From contig AZYC01000003.1 in the NCBI GenBank assembly GCA_000513075.1, positions 1-45,705 on the forward strand: a DNA stretch of 45,705 nucleotides. The letters run 5' to 3'. How positions within the stretch are numbered: the first letter of the stretch is position 1; each line of letters starts with the position of its first letter. Under the pieces are notes generated by a model. It searched no databases and was not told where the DNA came from. It saw only the letters and a list, made by a program, of their open reading frames with translations. Source of the DNA: an alpha proteobacterium SCGC AAA288-G21. Lineage in GTDB: Bacteria > Pseudomonadota > Alphaproteobacteria > Pelagibacterales > Pelagibacteraceae. A program made the position numbers and the translations under genes. Below, piece by piece: positions 14,072 through 30,233 of this stretch.

Positions 14072-14878
14072 ATGAACAAAAGTATTTTTTTATCAACCAT
14101 TTTTCACATTCTGATTTTTAGTCTATCAGTCATGAGTTTTCCTTATATGCTAAAAAAACCAATTGATTTACCTCCGATTATATCAATAGAGTTAATACAA
14201 ATTTCTGATATTACCAATATTCCTTACGCTCCTAAAGCAAGGAAGATTTTGGAAAAAATTAAAAAAGAAAAAGAAAGAGTAGTTTCGGAACAAGCTCCTC
14301 CAAAGGTAGTCAAAAAAGAAAAACCTGATGCCATCCCACTTCCTGAAGATGTAAAAAAACAGAAAAAAATAGAAACTAAAAAACAAAACCCAAAAAAAAT
14401 TGAAACTGAAATAAAACAGACATCAGAATTTGAAAAAAAAGAGCTTTTTGATCCAAATCAAATTGCAGCATTAATTGATAAATCCAAAGTCGAGACAGCT
14501 GAAACTATGCGTAAGAGTGACAAACTCACTCAAAGTCAGGATAAAAATTTCATAGCATCCAGTTTAACTTTAAGCGAAGAAGATGCATTAAAGGCTCAAA
14601 TATTTGGCTGTTGGAGTATTCCATTAGGTTTACCATACAATGAAAATTTATTAGTAAGAATTAAACTAAAATTGAAACAAGATGGTACAGTGATTAAATC
14701 AGAAATTTTAGATCATGCTCGAATGAATACACCTGGACAAGCTTTTTACAAAGTATTAGCCGAAAGTGCTTTAAGAGCAGTTAGATTATGCCAGCCATTA
14801 AGAGTTCCAACAACAGGCTATGAGAGATGGAAGGACTTACAGCTTAATTTTGATGCCAACGAAATGCTAAAAGGATGA
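14072..14878 (+). CDS. tolA: TolA-like protein, short linker
   Basis: This 268-residue protein has one N-terminal membrane helix (about 4-25), a lysine- and proline-rich periplasmic linker from about 65 to 140, and a C-terminal domain. In that domain the segments [20 protein letters not shown] and [12 protein letters not shown] carry two cysteines, the usual positions of the TolA domain III disulfide. The long alanine-rich helix of E. coli TolA is absent, so the arm is shorter. It spans the periplasm between TolQR and Pal/TolB. It overlaps the tolB start by 4 bp (ATGA). Confidence 0.9.
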
Positions 14879-26305: not shown

Positions 26306-27286
26306 TTATTTGCTGATATTTCTCAGTTTTTTAACCAATTTTGACAAATTTTTTGGCAATGGAATTTCAAAATGAACTTCTTTACTACTTGATGGATGAA
26401 CAAATCCAAGAGATTTTGCATGTAAAAATTGTCTGTCAATATTTTTTATCATTGAATCTAATTCCATGTCTATCTTTTTAAATTTTTTATTTTTTTTTCG
26501 ATACAGTTTATCTCCAATTATTGGGTTGCCTTTATAAGTCATATGAACTCTAATTTGATGAGTTCTTCCGGAGTCCAATTTACACTCAATTAAACTCAAG
26601 GTTGGGACTTTGTTATTTTGAAAAACTTCCAACGTTTTATAATTTGTAACAGCTGATTTCCCCTTTGTTTGGCTTACCTCCATTAACTGTCTATTTCTAT
26701 TGCTTCGAGTAATATAATTTTTAATAATTCCTTTTTGAGGTCTTAAAGTTCCCCATACCAAAGCTTCATATTTTCTATTTATCGTATGGTCACTAAATTG
26801 TTTTGAAAGATTTATATGTGCTATATCATTTTTTGCAACAACCAAGAGTCCACTTGTGTCCTTGTCCAATCTATGTACGACGCCAGGTCTTAACTCTCCA
26901 CCAATCGTAGATAAACTTCCCTTACAATAATTGACAAGTGCATTAACTAAAGTATTTTCAGTGTTACCAGCGCCAGGATGCACCACAAGGCCTGCTGGTT
27001 TATTGATTATAATTATATCATTGTCCTCAAAGACAATTTCTAAATTATAATCATATGGTTTGATATTAGTTTTTTTTGGTAGAGGAATTTTTATTATAAT
27101 AGTATCTTTCAAATTAATTTTTTTTGATGGTTCAAAATTAGTTTTATCGTTAACTGTTACGAAACCATCTAGAATTAAATTCTTTATTCTAGTTCGACTA
27201 ATATCGGTTATTTTAGAACTGATAAAAATATCCAAACGCTTATTTGAATTTTGATCATCTACAAATAACTTAATTATTTTTTTCAT
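26306..27286 (-). CDS. rluD: 23S rRNA pseudouridine synthase RluD-type
   Basis: This RluA-family pseudouridine synthase has 326 residues from the ATG at 27286; a start 14 codons further up would add a non-family segment. The N-terminal S4 RNA-binding domain is KRLDIFISSKITDISRTRIK. The catalytic domain has INKPAGLVVHPGAGN and GVVHRLDKDTSGLLVVAKN with Asp141. ECKLDSGRTHQIRVHM and PIIGDKLY complete the signature. It probably modifies helix 69 of 23S rRNA. It is 51 bp upstream of the rpoH start on the same strand. Confidence 0.93.
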   Translation of the reverse strand: MKKIIKLFVDDQNSNKRLDIFISSKITDISRTRIKNLILDGFVTVNDKTNFEPSKKINLKDTIIIKIPLPKKTNIKPYDYNLEIVFEDNDIIIINKPAGLVVHPGAGNTENTLVNALVNYCKGSLSTIGGELRPGVVHRLDKDTSGLLVVAKNDIAHINLSKQFSDHTINRKYEALVWGTLRPQKGIIKNYITRSNRNRQLMEVSQTKGKSAVTNYKTLEVFQNNKVPTLSLIECKLDSGRTHQIRVHMTYKGNPIIGDKLYRKKNKKFKKIDMELDSMIKNIDRQFLHAKSLGFVHPSSSKEVHFEIPLPKNLSKLVKKLRNISK

Positions 27287-27358
27287 TTTTAATTTATAAT
27301 ATCCTAAATTTAGCGTGCTTGTAGTCAATTGGACATAAGCTTTAGAAGCAAGTTAGTC

Positions 27359-27387
27359 TTGACTCAATTATATATTAGGAGTATTTA
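27359..27387 (+). promoter_or_regulatory. candidate promoter of the B12 riboswitch transcript
   Basis: TTGACT (27359-27364), 17 bases, then TATTTA (27382-27387). The predicted start near 27394 falls within two bases of the first paired base of the riboswitch closing stem, which supports it. Confidence 0.5.
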
Positions 27388-27395
27388 GCAAAATA

Positions 27396-27590
27396 ATACT
27401 GTTAATATGGTGGGGAATAATGTGAAAATCATTAGCTGTTCTCGCAGCGGTAATAAAGATTAGATCTAAGCCCGAGTACCACCCAGTATAGCCCGCTGTC
27501 GAATGAAGGCCGAGAAAAGTCTAATTCTACAATGAAAAATTAGCAGTGGCATTAAATTAACAAATAAAACTAATTTTTAGTTTTATTAAA
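27396..27590 (+). ncRNA. cobalamin riboswitch
   Basis: The core matches cobalamin riboswitches closely. It has GGGGAATAATGTGAAAATCA (27412-27431), then AGCTG, CGCAGCGGTAA and the B12 box AAGCCCGAGTACC ending at 27480; the E. coli btuB leader has nearly the same words. Helices visible are a closing stem ATACTG (27396-27401) with CAGTAT (27484-27489), GGTGG (27409-27413) with CCACC (27479-27483), AATG/CATT around loop TGAAAAT, and GCTG/CAGC. P7 is very short. The expression platform runs to about 27590 and ends in an AT-rich 10-bp hairpin (27563-27587) just before the btuB start. That hairpin has no T-tract after it, so control may be at translation. It should repress btuB when B12 is plentiful. 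Confidence 0.9.
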
Positions 27591-27603
27591 GTGACGATGC
27601 TAA

Positions 27604-29532
27604 ATGCTAATAATATTGAGATTATTAATATTAATTCTAATTTTAAATTTTTCTATAAATAAACTATTTGCCGCCGATATCCCGGTTATAGTTATTGCGC
27701 CAAGTAAAAAAGCACAATCTATTTCGACAGTTGGTTCATCGGTGATGGTTTATGATCAAGAATATCTAGATAATAATGAAGATTTTTTTTTAGGGGATAT
27801 TTTATCGGATGGATCATCAATTAATTTTAATCAGAGTGGTGGCGCAGGAACAATTTCCGGAATTCAATTAAGGGGTTTACCAAAAGCCTACTCAACGGTC
27901 TATATTGATGGGGTTAAAATGTCGGACAACTCAACTCCAAAAAACGATTATTATTTTGATGATATCTTGTCTGGTCAAATTTCCAGAGTTGAAATATTGA
28001 AAGGTAATCAGAGCTCAGTTTATGGAAGTGGAGCGATGGGTGGTACAATAAATATTACCACTAAAAGAGGTCAACCAGGATTTCAAAAAAACTTTTTTTA
28101 CAATACTGGATCTCATGGAACCCAAAATTTAGGTTTTTCATTAGGTGGAGCGAATGATGACAGAGATTTTTATATAGGTTTGGAGAGGTATCAAACAGAT
28201 GGAATTTCACAGATGAGTCATAATGAGGAAGACGATGCATATAAAAATCATACTTTAATTGCAAATTATGGATATAAAATTTCAGATAAAATTGGATTTA
28301 CAACTAACTACAGATTCGCCAATGCTAGATTAGAATATGATTCTGTAAACAAAGATTATAGAAATGATTGGGATAATTCTCATGAAAAAGAGTCTACTGT
28401 TAATTTTGGTTTTTCATATAAACCAAATGTAAAGTTTACAAACAATTTAAATTTTACAAGTGCTTATAACAGCAGAACGGGTAATGATATACAAAGTGCT
28501 TATGACAGTAGATTTCAAAAAAATGGTTTCTGGTCATATCGAGACGCCATTAACTATAAAGGAATATACAATTTTAATTTAGACAATAGTGCAGTTTTTG
28601 GAATTGAGAAAGAATGGAATGAAATGGACTATGAAAAATACAATGGTCGTGATGATGCCATAGATCGTAGATATGCTGAAGAAGTTGTTTCTCAATATGT
28701 TGATTTTCAGTCCAGATTAACAAATAATTTATACGCCACAGCTGGTATAAGATTTGATGATCATACTGCTGCTGGACGCGAGCATAGCGAACGAGTTTCT
28801 CTAGCTTATCTTTTTGATGATAAAAATACTAAACTTAAAAGCTCTTATGGTACAGGAATTAAATATCCCTCCCTTTATGAATTTTATAAAAATGAAGGCA
28901 GCTCTTCACTGGGAGCCGAGCATGGTAAAAGTTTTGACTTTGGTATGGAAAAATCTTTTCCAGAAAAAGGTATTAGATTTGATATTACTTATTTCAATCA
29001 TAAATATGAAGATATGATCGAAGGTCAAAAAAGAACTGGCTGGTTGCCTCAAAATGTTTCCGGCACAGTTAGGTCACAAGGTATTGAGTTATTTTCTCAA
29101 TATAAGTTCAGCAATATATTAAATTTTGATCTGAATTATACTTATAGCTCTACTTACGATGGTGCAGACTTTGACGATCCAGATATGGGTCCTGATAGTA
29201 ATGGCTTATTCACGAATTCTCAATTAGTTAGAATTCCTAGACATTTCATTAATTTAACCACCAAAGTATCACCAGTAAAAGATTTAAATATTACTTTAAA
29301 AACTAAATGGTCAGATGAAATGAGAGATTATGAAAATGTAAATAGTACGGTAAGCGGAGATCAAAGATTAAAATCTTTTTTGGTGAACGATCTAACGGCT
29401 GATTATAAATTGGCTAACGGATATAAAGCTTTTTTTAAAATAGATAATATCTTTGATGAAGTTTACAATACTGCTCTCGAATATAATCAAATGGACAGAT
29501 CTTTTAATTTTGGAATAAAAAGGTCTTATTAG
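27604..29532 (+). CDS. btuB: TonB-dependent vitamin B12 receptor, BtuB-like
   Basis: This 642-residue outer-membrane receptor has a signal peptide (about 1-23, LFAA). It has a TonB-box-like IPVIVIAPS near residues 26-34, then a plug domain with ISGIQLRGLPKAYSTVYIDG and ISRVEILKGNQSSVYGSGAM. The rest is a 22-strand-type barrel ending in alternating residues and a terminal tyrosine (FNFGIKRSY). The cobalamin riboswitch directly upstream sets the substrate. Uptake needs TonB-ExbBD, not seen here; TolQRA nearby is a different motor. A 60-bp gap separates it from the DUF6580 gene on the same strand. Class is certain; B12 specificity rests on the riboswitch. Confidence 0.9.
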   Translation: MLIILRLLILILILNFSINKLFAADIPVIVIAPSKKAQSISTVGSSVMVYDQEYLDNNEDFFLGDILSDGSSINFNQSGGAGTISGIQLRGLPKAYSTVYIDGVKMSDNSTPKNDYYFDDILSGQISRVEILKGNQSSVYGSGAMGGTINITTKRGQPGFQKNFFYNTGSHGTQNLGFSLGGANDDRDFYIGLERYQTDGISQMSHNEEDDAYKNHTLIANYGYKISDKIGFTTNYRFANARLEYDSVNKDYRNDWDNSHEKESTVNFGFSYKPNVKFTNNLNFTSAYNSRTGNDIQSAYDSRFQKNGFWSYRDAINYKGIYNFNLDNSAVFGIEKEWNEMDYEKYNGRDDAIDRRYAEEVVSQYVDFQSRLTNNLYATAGIRFDDHTAAGREHSERVSLAYLFDDKNTKLKSSYGTGIKYPSLYEFYKNEGSSSLGAEHGKSFDFGMEKSFPEKGIRFDITYFNHKYEDMIEGQKRTGWLPQNVSGTVRSQGIELFSQYKFSNILNFDLNYTYSSTYDGADFDDPDMGPDSNGLFTNSQLVRIPRHFINLTTKVSPVKDLNITLKTKWSDEMRDYENVNSTVSGDQRLKSFLVNDLTADYKLANGYKAFFKIDNIFDEVYNTALEYNQMDRSFNFGIKRSY

Positions 29533-29592
29533 TGAGAAAATTGAATAATTAAGACTAGTTTTAAATAAATTTATGTATTATACGTTTTAAAT

Positions 29593-30153
29593 ATGAAAAC
29601 ATTTTTTAAAATTTCGGTAAAAGAAATATTCCCCATTGGTTTAGTTTTGTTATTAGCATTCTCTAGATTGATACCTCATCCACCTAATTTTACTCCAATA
29701 GTGGCTGTAGCGATAATGAGTGGTTATTTTTTTAAAAATATAAAATTGTCTTTTGTTGTGTTGCTAATTGCCATGTTATTGGTGGATGTTTTCCTTGGAT
29801 TTTATAAACACATGTTGTTTGTTTATTTATCATTATTTCTAATAACTTTTATTTTTTTTAAAATATCTGACAAAATAAATTTCAAAAATTTGTTCGTTTT
29901 TGGTTTTTTGGGTTCATTAATATTTTATTTGGTTTCTAATTTTGGTGTATGGGCTTCTGGAGTTCTTTCTCCGGTTACTAATCTACCTTATGAAAAAGAT
30001 TTAAATGGTTTAATAAGCTGTTATTTTTTAGCAATACCCTTTTTTAAGAATACACTTTTCTCCACAGTAATATTTTCTTATGCTGCTTTCCTTGCAAACC
30101 ATTCTTATAAAAAAATGGAACAAAACAAAATAGCGAGAAAATCTATCAAATAA
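29593..30153 (+). CDS. DUF6580 membrane protein, candidate B12 transporter component
   Basis: This 186-residue protein has about five to six hydrophobic segments and the family signature SRLIPHPPNFTPIVAVAIMS near residues 24-43, followed by a VDVFLGFYKH loop. DUF6580 proteins resemble the small substrate-binding (S) subunits of ECF vitamin transporters in size and topology. It follows btuB on the same strand, 60 bp downstream and possibly under the same riboswitch. No BtuC, BtuD or BtuF gene is next to it, so it may carry B12 across the inner membrane. Topology and motif are visible; transport of B12 is inferred from position. It ends 2 bp before the convergent tRNA-Arg. Confidence 0.75.
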   Translation: MKTFFKISVKEIFPIGLVLLLAFSRLIPHPPNFTPIVAVAIMSGYFFKNIKLSFVVLLIAMLLVDVFLGFYKHMLFVYLSLFLITFIFFKISDKINFKNLFVFGFLGSLIFYLVSNFGVWASGVLSPVTNLPYEKDLNGLISCYFLAIPFFKNTLFSTVIFSYAAFLANHSYKKMEQNKIARKSIK

Positions 30154-30155
30154 TT

Positions 30156-30233
30156 TGGCGGGCCGCGAGGGACTCGAACCCCCAACCTCTGCGTCCGAAG
30201 CGCAGCGCTCTATCCAATTGAAGCTAGCAGCCC
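30156..30233 (-). tRNA. tRNA-Arg (TCG)
   Basis: The minus strand gives a 78-nt tRNA with encoded CCA (TGG at 30156-30158). Acceptor GGGCTGC pairs with GCGGCCC with one G-T wobble. The anticodon stem CTGCG/CGCAG surrounds loop CTTCGGA, so the anticodon is TCG (complement of 30196-30198), reading CGA and other CGN arginine codons. The T loop is TTCGAGT. It abuts the B12 cassette. Confidence 0.94.

Follow-up and report, generated by a model that had tools for sequence, protein, structure and literature searches.

Genetic organization of the locus

We analyzed a 45,705-nucleotide (nt) stretch of DNA (contig AZYC01000003.1; "the window") from the SAR11 alphaproteobacterium SCGC AAA288-G21 (G000), in which a cobalamin riboswitch, a gene for a TonB-dependent receptor and a gene for a DUF6580 membrane protein lie between rluD and a tRNA-Arg gene. 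These positions were confirmed by Rfam, Pfam and tRNA annotation. The comparison set comprised 147 Pelagibacteraceae (SAR11) genomes of 14 genera, 53 of them near-complete; G006, G020 and G029 belong to the same genus as G000. The elements of the unit are as follows.

27359-27387, plus strand: putative promoter-like block TTGACT-17-TATTTA, from its conservation in relatives
27396-27489, plus strand: cobalamin riboswitch aptamer of the adenosylcobalamin type AdoCbl-II (RF01689), matching the full model (1-81)
27440-27443, plus strand: L5 loop UCUC, one half of a kissing loop, from covariation with L13
27490-27552, plus strand: conserved expression-platform extension
27493-27498/27544-27549, plus strand: closing stem of the extension
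27507-27510/27519-27522, plus strand: L13 hairpin within the extension, loop GAGA at 27512-27515
27563-27587, plus strand: perfect 11-bp A/T hairpin just 5' of the receptor start, read from the sequence
27604-29532, plus strand: BtuB-like TonB-dependent receptor, 642 amino acids (aa), with Pfam Plug and barrel domains
29593-30153, plus strand: DUF6580 (PF20221, 2e-40), from fold and profile matches a predicted S-component-type (BtuM/CbrT-like) inner-membrane cobalamin transporter

The initial annotation had described a riboswitch-controlled uptake unit for vitamin B12, accessory in a SAR11-like genome, and our results support this description. With a probability of roughly 75%, the riboswitch, the receptor and DUF6580 constitute a cassette for cobamide (vitamin B12) uptake that is portable, regulates itself and feeds class B radical S-adenosylmethionine (radical-SAM) enzymes.

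Structure of the leader RNA

The proposed cobalamin riboswitch was borne out by an Rfam covariance search, in which AdoCbl-II scored 70.7 bits (gathering cut-off 36.5; E = 1.1e-15). We aligned 27 SAR11 leaders across the aptamer and its conserved extension of 60 nt, which phages also carry at full length. In the proposed structure, 96.3% of the alignment cells were paired and 20 pairs showed two-sided changes; none of 500 shuffles matched this result, and slid controls came nowhere near it. The kissing loop between L5 and L13 covaried at two of its four pairs (CG to UA and UA to CG) in 4 of the 27 leaders. Most genomes carry UCCU/AGGA; UCUC or ACUC with GAGA occurs in the genus of G000 and in G008, and a phage contig (L294) holds a third solution, UCCA with UGGA. 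This covariation indicates that L5 and L13 form a kissing loop by which the riboswitch engages its expression platform. A scan of the leader revealed no intrinsic terminator, which fits translational control, and the leader may thus act at that level.

The promoter claimed by the initial annotation was not called at 27359-27387 in a consensus scan of the window, but the block itself (CTTGAC, 17 nt, TATTTA), which ends 8 nt 5' of the aptamer, is shared by G000 and G006, and a similar CTTGAC is present in the G029 leader. Hairpins similar to that at 27563-27587 also precede the receptor start codon in G006 and G029. A short frame, AUG-AAA-AAU-UAG, lies within the riboswitch extension at 27533-27544.

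Identity and exchange of the receptor

The receptor showed the domains of BtuB, namely Plug (8e-17) and TonB_dep_Rec_b-barrel (8e-31). Its best NCBIfam model was TIGR01779 (B12 receptor), with 192 bits against an equivalog cut-off of 599.7; PRK10641 gave 117 of the 836 bits of its cut-off, and phmmer ranked CirA and BtuB about equally. "BtuB-like" is thus a fair label by best model, and, since the TIGR01779 score stays far below the cut-off, also the limit of sequence-based naming.

The initial annotation had called for a comparison of gene trees, and the trees of receptor and DUF6580 turned out to be incongruent. Between G000 and G006, DNA identity was 88-93% for rpoH, rluD, DUF6580 and the ATP-binding cassette (ABC) permease gene, 91.5% for the aptamer, 95% for the extension and 97% for the tRNA gene; that of the receptor gene was 65.8%. 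The G000 and G029 receptor genes were 93.3% identical. In the receptor tree, which is approximate because of its long branches, G000 and G029 clustered with G024 and G085 from another genus (support 99) and G006 fell into a separate subclade, whereas the DUF6580 tree placed G000, G029 and G006 together (100/99). The divergence and the conflicting trees indicate that the receptor was exchanged in place inside a fixed cassette, of which the riboswitch, DUF6580 and the flanks stayed orthologous. The exchange might possibly have been driven by phages that target the surface receptor or by a change in the cobamide form that is taken up.

Across the family, the receptors next to DUF6580 fall into three distant clades (A, B and C; 22-56% identity). 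That such different receptors share the same riboswitch and the same DUF6580 could mean that the cassette imports another corrinoid or a B12 precursor (pseudocobalamin, cobinamide or alpha-ribazole-containing forms), or that the exchanged receptors recognize different forms or carriers. CbrT, a B12-specific S-component, accepts cobinamide (PMC5997447), and the ocean holds both pseudocobalamin and cobalamin (PMC9296465). None of the sequence features that we read separates corrinoids, and a cobamide of some kind is implied by the riboswitch regardless; we therefore regard this alternative as rather unlikely.

Further receptor variants were observed. A 1417-aa receptor in G110 (L069, 5793-10046), with the same riboswitch type upstream, ends in a long stretch that matches no Pfam family. 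A third receptor type (743-774 aa) adjoins DUF6580 in the Pelagibacteraceae loci L202-L206, L209, L212, L216, L225, L227 and L229; riboswitch matches there were weak and mostly partial (24-34 bits), possibly reflecting a divergent cobalamin riboswitch. An apparent 1458-aa "fusion" in G007 was rejected as an open frame running opposite another open reading frame.

Fold and genomic context of DUF6580

Two AlphaFold models of DUF6580 (mean predicted local distance difference test scores of 92 and 93.5) depicted a small all-helical membrane protein. The model derived from a broad alignment was compared with 350,542 PDB chains by Foldseek. The top match was BtuM with cyanocobalamin (8c7p; probability 1.00, template modeling (TM) score 0.63), the second BtuM with hydroxycobalamin (probability 0.97, TM 0.51), and next came the S-components FolT, RibU, ThiT and BioY; among the matches listed, all others with a probability above 0.3 were S-components of energy-coupling factor (ECF) transporters. 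The broad alignment was needed, as an earlier model from a SAR11-only alignment gave only weak S-component matches. Independently, the DUF6580 profile from the broad alignment, searched against the whole PDB up to an E-value of 10, matched a single chain with a modest E-value of 0.0013, 6FNP_A, which is CbrT (PMC5997447). Thus, the models suggest for DUF6580 the S-component-like six-helix membrane fold of BtuM, and profile (CbrT) and fold relate it to the ECF S-component superfamily. In the DUF6580 alignments A1 and A3, none of the columns that are invariant or nearly so holds a cysteine; because the axial-ligand cysteine of BtuM (Cys80) is not conserved, we did not file DUF6580 as BtuM. A nearly invariant histidine in a PHP motif is a candidate cobalamin ligand.

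The genomic context was sampled at 47 non-SAR11 loci (434 kb) picked by DUF6580 similarity alone. Cobalamin-type riboswitches, 20 in total, occurred in 18 of the 47 loci and in many phyla. The operons included riboswitch-BtuB-adenosyltransferase-ROK-DUF6580 (L197), riboswitch-BtuB-Dph-BtuF-DUF6580 (L195) and BtuB-DUF6580-MetH (L249). In bacteria of the Candidate Phyla Radiation (CPR), DUF6580 lay near a class II ribonucleotide reductase gene and without a receptor gene (L240, 1919-5525; L220, 1965-5519). Since fold and profile agree on two independent B12 transporters and the genomic context points the same way, DUF6580 is very likely an inner-membrane B12 importer. The initial annotation had listed it as a DUF6580 membrane protein of the unit; rather than an incidental component, it is the probable inner-membrane B12 transporter.

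A role of DUF6580 as an accessory protein for cobalamin modification, decyanation or storage, with import left to an unrecognized ABC system, is unlikely. BtuM, a solitary S-component-like B12 transporter and thus a precedent for action without an ECF module, also decyanates B12 (PMC6072759), and BtuF occurs in some of the DUF6580 loci. No ECF module (EcfT/EcfA) was identified in the cassettes, a search that did not extend to whole SAR11 genomes. However, no strong match to a true BtuC was obtained in the 147 genomes (FecCD 17-31 bits, mostly in frames of about 270 aa), and both the S-component fold and the pairing of DUF6580 with class II ribonucleotide reductase in receptor-free CPR loci argue for an importer.

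The CPR locus L240 also carries an AdoCbl-II riboswitch; such CPR loci would represent B12 import by cells that presumably have no outer membrane. At L137, L140 and L143 (G107, G067 and G025), the DUF6580 frame is about 60 residues longer at a cysteine-rich N-terminus, perhaps because it is fused to a DUF1289-like segment or because the start lies farther upstream. No paper naming DUF6580 was found in the literature searched.

Insertion site and distribution of the cassette

The following features delimit the cassette.

26306-27283, minus strand: rluD, with rpoH beyond it
27313-27339, plus strand: putative pseudogene, decayed 5' part of the resident tRNA-Arg gene, from similarity to the intact G020 gene
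30156-30233, minus strand: tRNA-Arg(TCG), arrived with the cassette, its sequence unlike that of the resident gene in G020 and in other genera

As proposed by the initial annotation, the rluD to tRNA-Arg interval was compared across SAR11. The cassette was absent from the same-genus G020 and from G003, G050, G077 and others, which share the order rluD (minus), tRNA-Arg (plus) and ABC permease (minus). The cassette of G000, G029 and G006 is flanked by rluD and by a tRNA-Arg gene of inverted orientation and different sequence, the G006 and G029 copies of which are 97-100% identical to that of G000. At the left edge of the G000 cassette we found the remnant GCTTGTAGTCAATTGGA, compared with GCTTGTAGCTCAATTGGA of the intact tRNA-Arg gene at the empty G020 site (local score 15 vs a maximum of 12 in 300 shuffles). 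The G006 remnant is clearer (28 vs a shuffled maximum of 14), and none was recognizable at the left edge in G029. An inverted, different tRNA-Arg gene together with a decayed resident copy implies that the cassette came in with a second tRNA-Arg gene, and the intact gene at empty sites against a remnant at filled ones polarizes the event as a gain. By this sequence evidence, the cassette entered beside the resident tRNA-Arg gene and brought one of its own, and the resident gene then decayed. Together with the incongruent gene trees, these findings corroborate the suggested gain of an accessory unit beside a tRNA gene, with the correction that the adjoining tRNA-Arg gene is not the resident one. 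A donor of the incoming gene was not apparent: the best alphaproteobacterial matches were 77-89% identical over 56-71 nt, and no exact viral match was obtained. Codon use, also suggested as a test, was uninformative and did not mark the cassette as foreign. On contig C26 of G020 (L108), rpoH-rluD-tRNA-Arg occurs twice, as an inverted copy, which is probably an assembly artefact.

Within the family, the riboswitch was present in 27 genomes, DUF6580 in 34 and the receptor in 35, and 36 genomes held at least one part. The cassettes occupy many different sites, several of them near tRNA or rRNA genes. The rarity presumed by the initial annotation is accurate as to patchiness, with the cassette in 2-4 of the 53 near-complete genomes; with 36 of 147 family genomes, however, it is not very rare.

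The patchiness could also reflect repeated loss of a cassette ancestral to the family, as 9 of the 14 genera carry it and the riboswitch, receptor clade A and DUF6580 are common to several SAR11 genera. Against this speak the gain polarized at the rluD site, where G000 and G006 keep a decayed tRNA-Arg gene and G020 and other genera the intact ancestral orientation, as well as the many different sites and the disagreement between receptor and DUF6580 trees, and we judge ancestry with loss to be improbable. A binning or assembly artefact joining a phage or foreign contig to a SAR11 contig, conceivable for a draft of 139 contigs when similar units exist in phages, can be dismissed almost entirely, because the same junctions occur in three separately assembled genomes (G000, G029 and G006) and the receptor has the most typical codon use of the 39 window genes.

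Energy coupling and B12-dependent enzymes

The initial annotation had proposed genome-wide searches for tonB-exbBD and for B12-dependent enzymes. The TonB C-terminal domain (TonB_C) was found in none of the 147 genomes; the receptor has a TonB-box-like DIPVIVIAPSK near its N-terminus, of which DIPVIVIAP is conserved across clade A, and no TonB was found to pair with it. ExbD/TolR occurred once per genome in nearly all of the 147. In G000 it is the TolR of a tol-pal cluster within the window, the only ExbD-type motor found in this genome:

12949-16781, plus strand: tolQ-tolR-(tolA-like)-tolB-pal (Pfam MotA_ExbB, ExbD/TolR, TolB_N and OmpA)

The Tol motor may therefore energize the receptor. The gene in the tolA position (14072-14878) may encode a divergent TolA/TonB-like protein able to work in both systems.

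The MetH activation domain was likewise absent from all 147 genomes, and MetH was rejected as a B12 user, in agreement with the reported lack of MetH and MetE in SAR11 (PMC12478193). A PduO/EutT-type adenosyltransferase was absent from all 28 genomes searched; the CobA type was not searched. All eight B12-binding proteins of G000 were B12-binding radical-SAM proteins, and several of their genes cluster with glycosyltransferase, O-antigen ligase-like and UDP-sugar genes. B12-radical-SAM genes were present in 32 of the 36 cassette genomes vs 17 of the 111 cassette-free ones (p = 9e-16; 0 of 20,000 within-genus permutations), and such a gene directly adjoins the cassette in G024, G093, G055, G002 and G085. 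The likely B12 users are thus class B radical-SAM enzymes and not methionine synthase.

Occurrence in phages

DUF6580 was found on 80 IMG/VR contigs, several of which are near-copies of each other. The full riboswitch with its extension lay upstream of DUF6580 on 15 of them (120-154 bits), and an adjacent TonB-dependent receptor gene was present on 33. The order AdoCbl-II riboswitch-DUF6580-receptor stands beside a terminase gene in four contigs of uncultivated marine T4-like phages: L294 (4785-7318), L307 (4779-7300), L284 (4800-7363) and L289 (4787-7318). The terminase is of T4 type in L294, L307 and L284, and UvsX or single-strand-binding protein genes also occur in L294 and L307; L308 carries a major head protein gene. 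By terminase and capsid, the nearest known phages were PA5oct-type and other jumbo phages (52-69% identity). No DUF6580 was found in the GenBank phages of the collection.

The phage receptors formed the sister group of SAR11 clade B (support 99) and not of clade A, to which the window's receptor belongs. As a vehicle for the cassette family, phages are thus plausible but unproven, and they are not demonstrated as the origin of the window's copy.

A second arrangement, receptor-DUF6580 without an RF01689 match, was seen in the phage contigs L308, L309, L313 and L347, with a glutamine riboswitch nearby in L308 and L313. The 276-kb viral contig L299 (943-2748 and 4875-5483) holds DUF6580 in a tRNA array and a B12-binding radical-SAM gene.

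Discussion

The proposed cassette would work as follows. At low intracellular cobalamin, the leader RNA would permit expression of the operon; once cobalamin occupies the aptamer, the L5-L13 kissing loop would form and switch the operon off. The receptor would bring B12 into the periplasm, and DUF6580, as a solitary S-component-type protein like BtuM or CbrT, would replace BtuCDF in carrying it over the inner membrane. Class B radical-SAM enzymes, many of them encoded in surface-polysaccharide gene clusters, would then use this B12. As to its history, the sequences show that the cassette arrived in this genus with a tRNA-Arg gene of its own, that the resident gene decayed and that the receptor was later exchanged in one lineage.

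Several observations weigh against this reading. The Foldseek E-values were weak (0.14) and not significant by themselves, so that the fold assignment rests on rank, probability and TM score. The receptor falls short of the equivalog cut-off for BtuB, the searches gave no TonB to energize it, and the gene in the tolA position gave no Pfam match. B12-radical-SAM genes are carried by 17 of the 111 cassette-free genomes (many of which are 55-65% complete), and four cassette genomes have no such match above the cut-off, among them G009 with a sub-threshold match. Finally, the G000 genome is a draft (909,786 bases in 139 contigs, 66% complete).

A wider proposal is more tentative, and we put it forward as a possibility with somewhat less than even prospects: DUF6580 proteins may be an unrecognized, widespread group of solitary S-component-type cobalamin importers, and the cassette a minimal portable B12 system, powered by Tol and not TonB, that SAR11 has in common with virulent marine T4-like phages and that was selected by the B12 need of surface-decorating class B radical-SAM enzymes. 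The uptake cassette proposed here offers a reason why B12 import would persist in organisms that have neither MetH nor MetE (PMC12478193). It also gives a testable role to a Pfam family of unknown function with members as far apart as Bacteroidota, CPR and phages. In one of the most abundant groups of ocean bacteria, it would connect the supply of B12 with phages and with the variable chemistry of the cell surface.

Comparison with known systems

Like the BtuB/TonB-ExbBD/BtuCDF system of E. coli, the SAR11 unit has a TonB-dependent outer-membrane receptor under a B12 riboswitch. It differs in that TonB_C, an ExbD besides TolR and a strong BtuC match were not found, in that the receptor scores below the BtuB equivalog cut-off, and in that the inner-membrane step would be carried out by DUF6580. 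BtuM (PMC6072759) is also a small membrane protein of the same fold, encoded beside btuB without BtuCDF, and represents the closest PDB fold match; DUF6580, however, shares 17% identity with it, forms a separate Pfam family and has no invariant cysteine matching Cys80. CbrT of ECF-CbrT (PDB 6FNP, PMC5997447) resembles DUF6580 as a B12-specific S-component and as the only PDB sequence match of its profile, but CbrT is of Gram-positive origin and requires an ECF module, none of which was identified in the SAR11 cassettes. In OM43, another streamlined marine bacterium, a cobalamin riboswitch lies directly 5' of btuB (PMC9004378), whereas a DUF6580 cassette, mobility and a link to radical-SAM enzymes are not described there. 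The env8/Cbl-II riboswitches of marine metagenomes (PMC10907184) are also marine cobalamin riboswitches in which L5 and L13 join aptamer and expression platform by a kissing loop; the riboswitch described here, by contrast, is assigned to SAR11 and to phages and has a conserved 60-nt extension.

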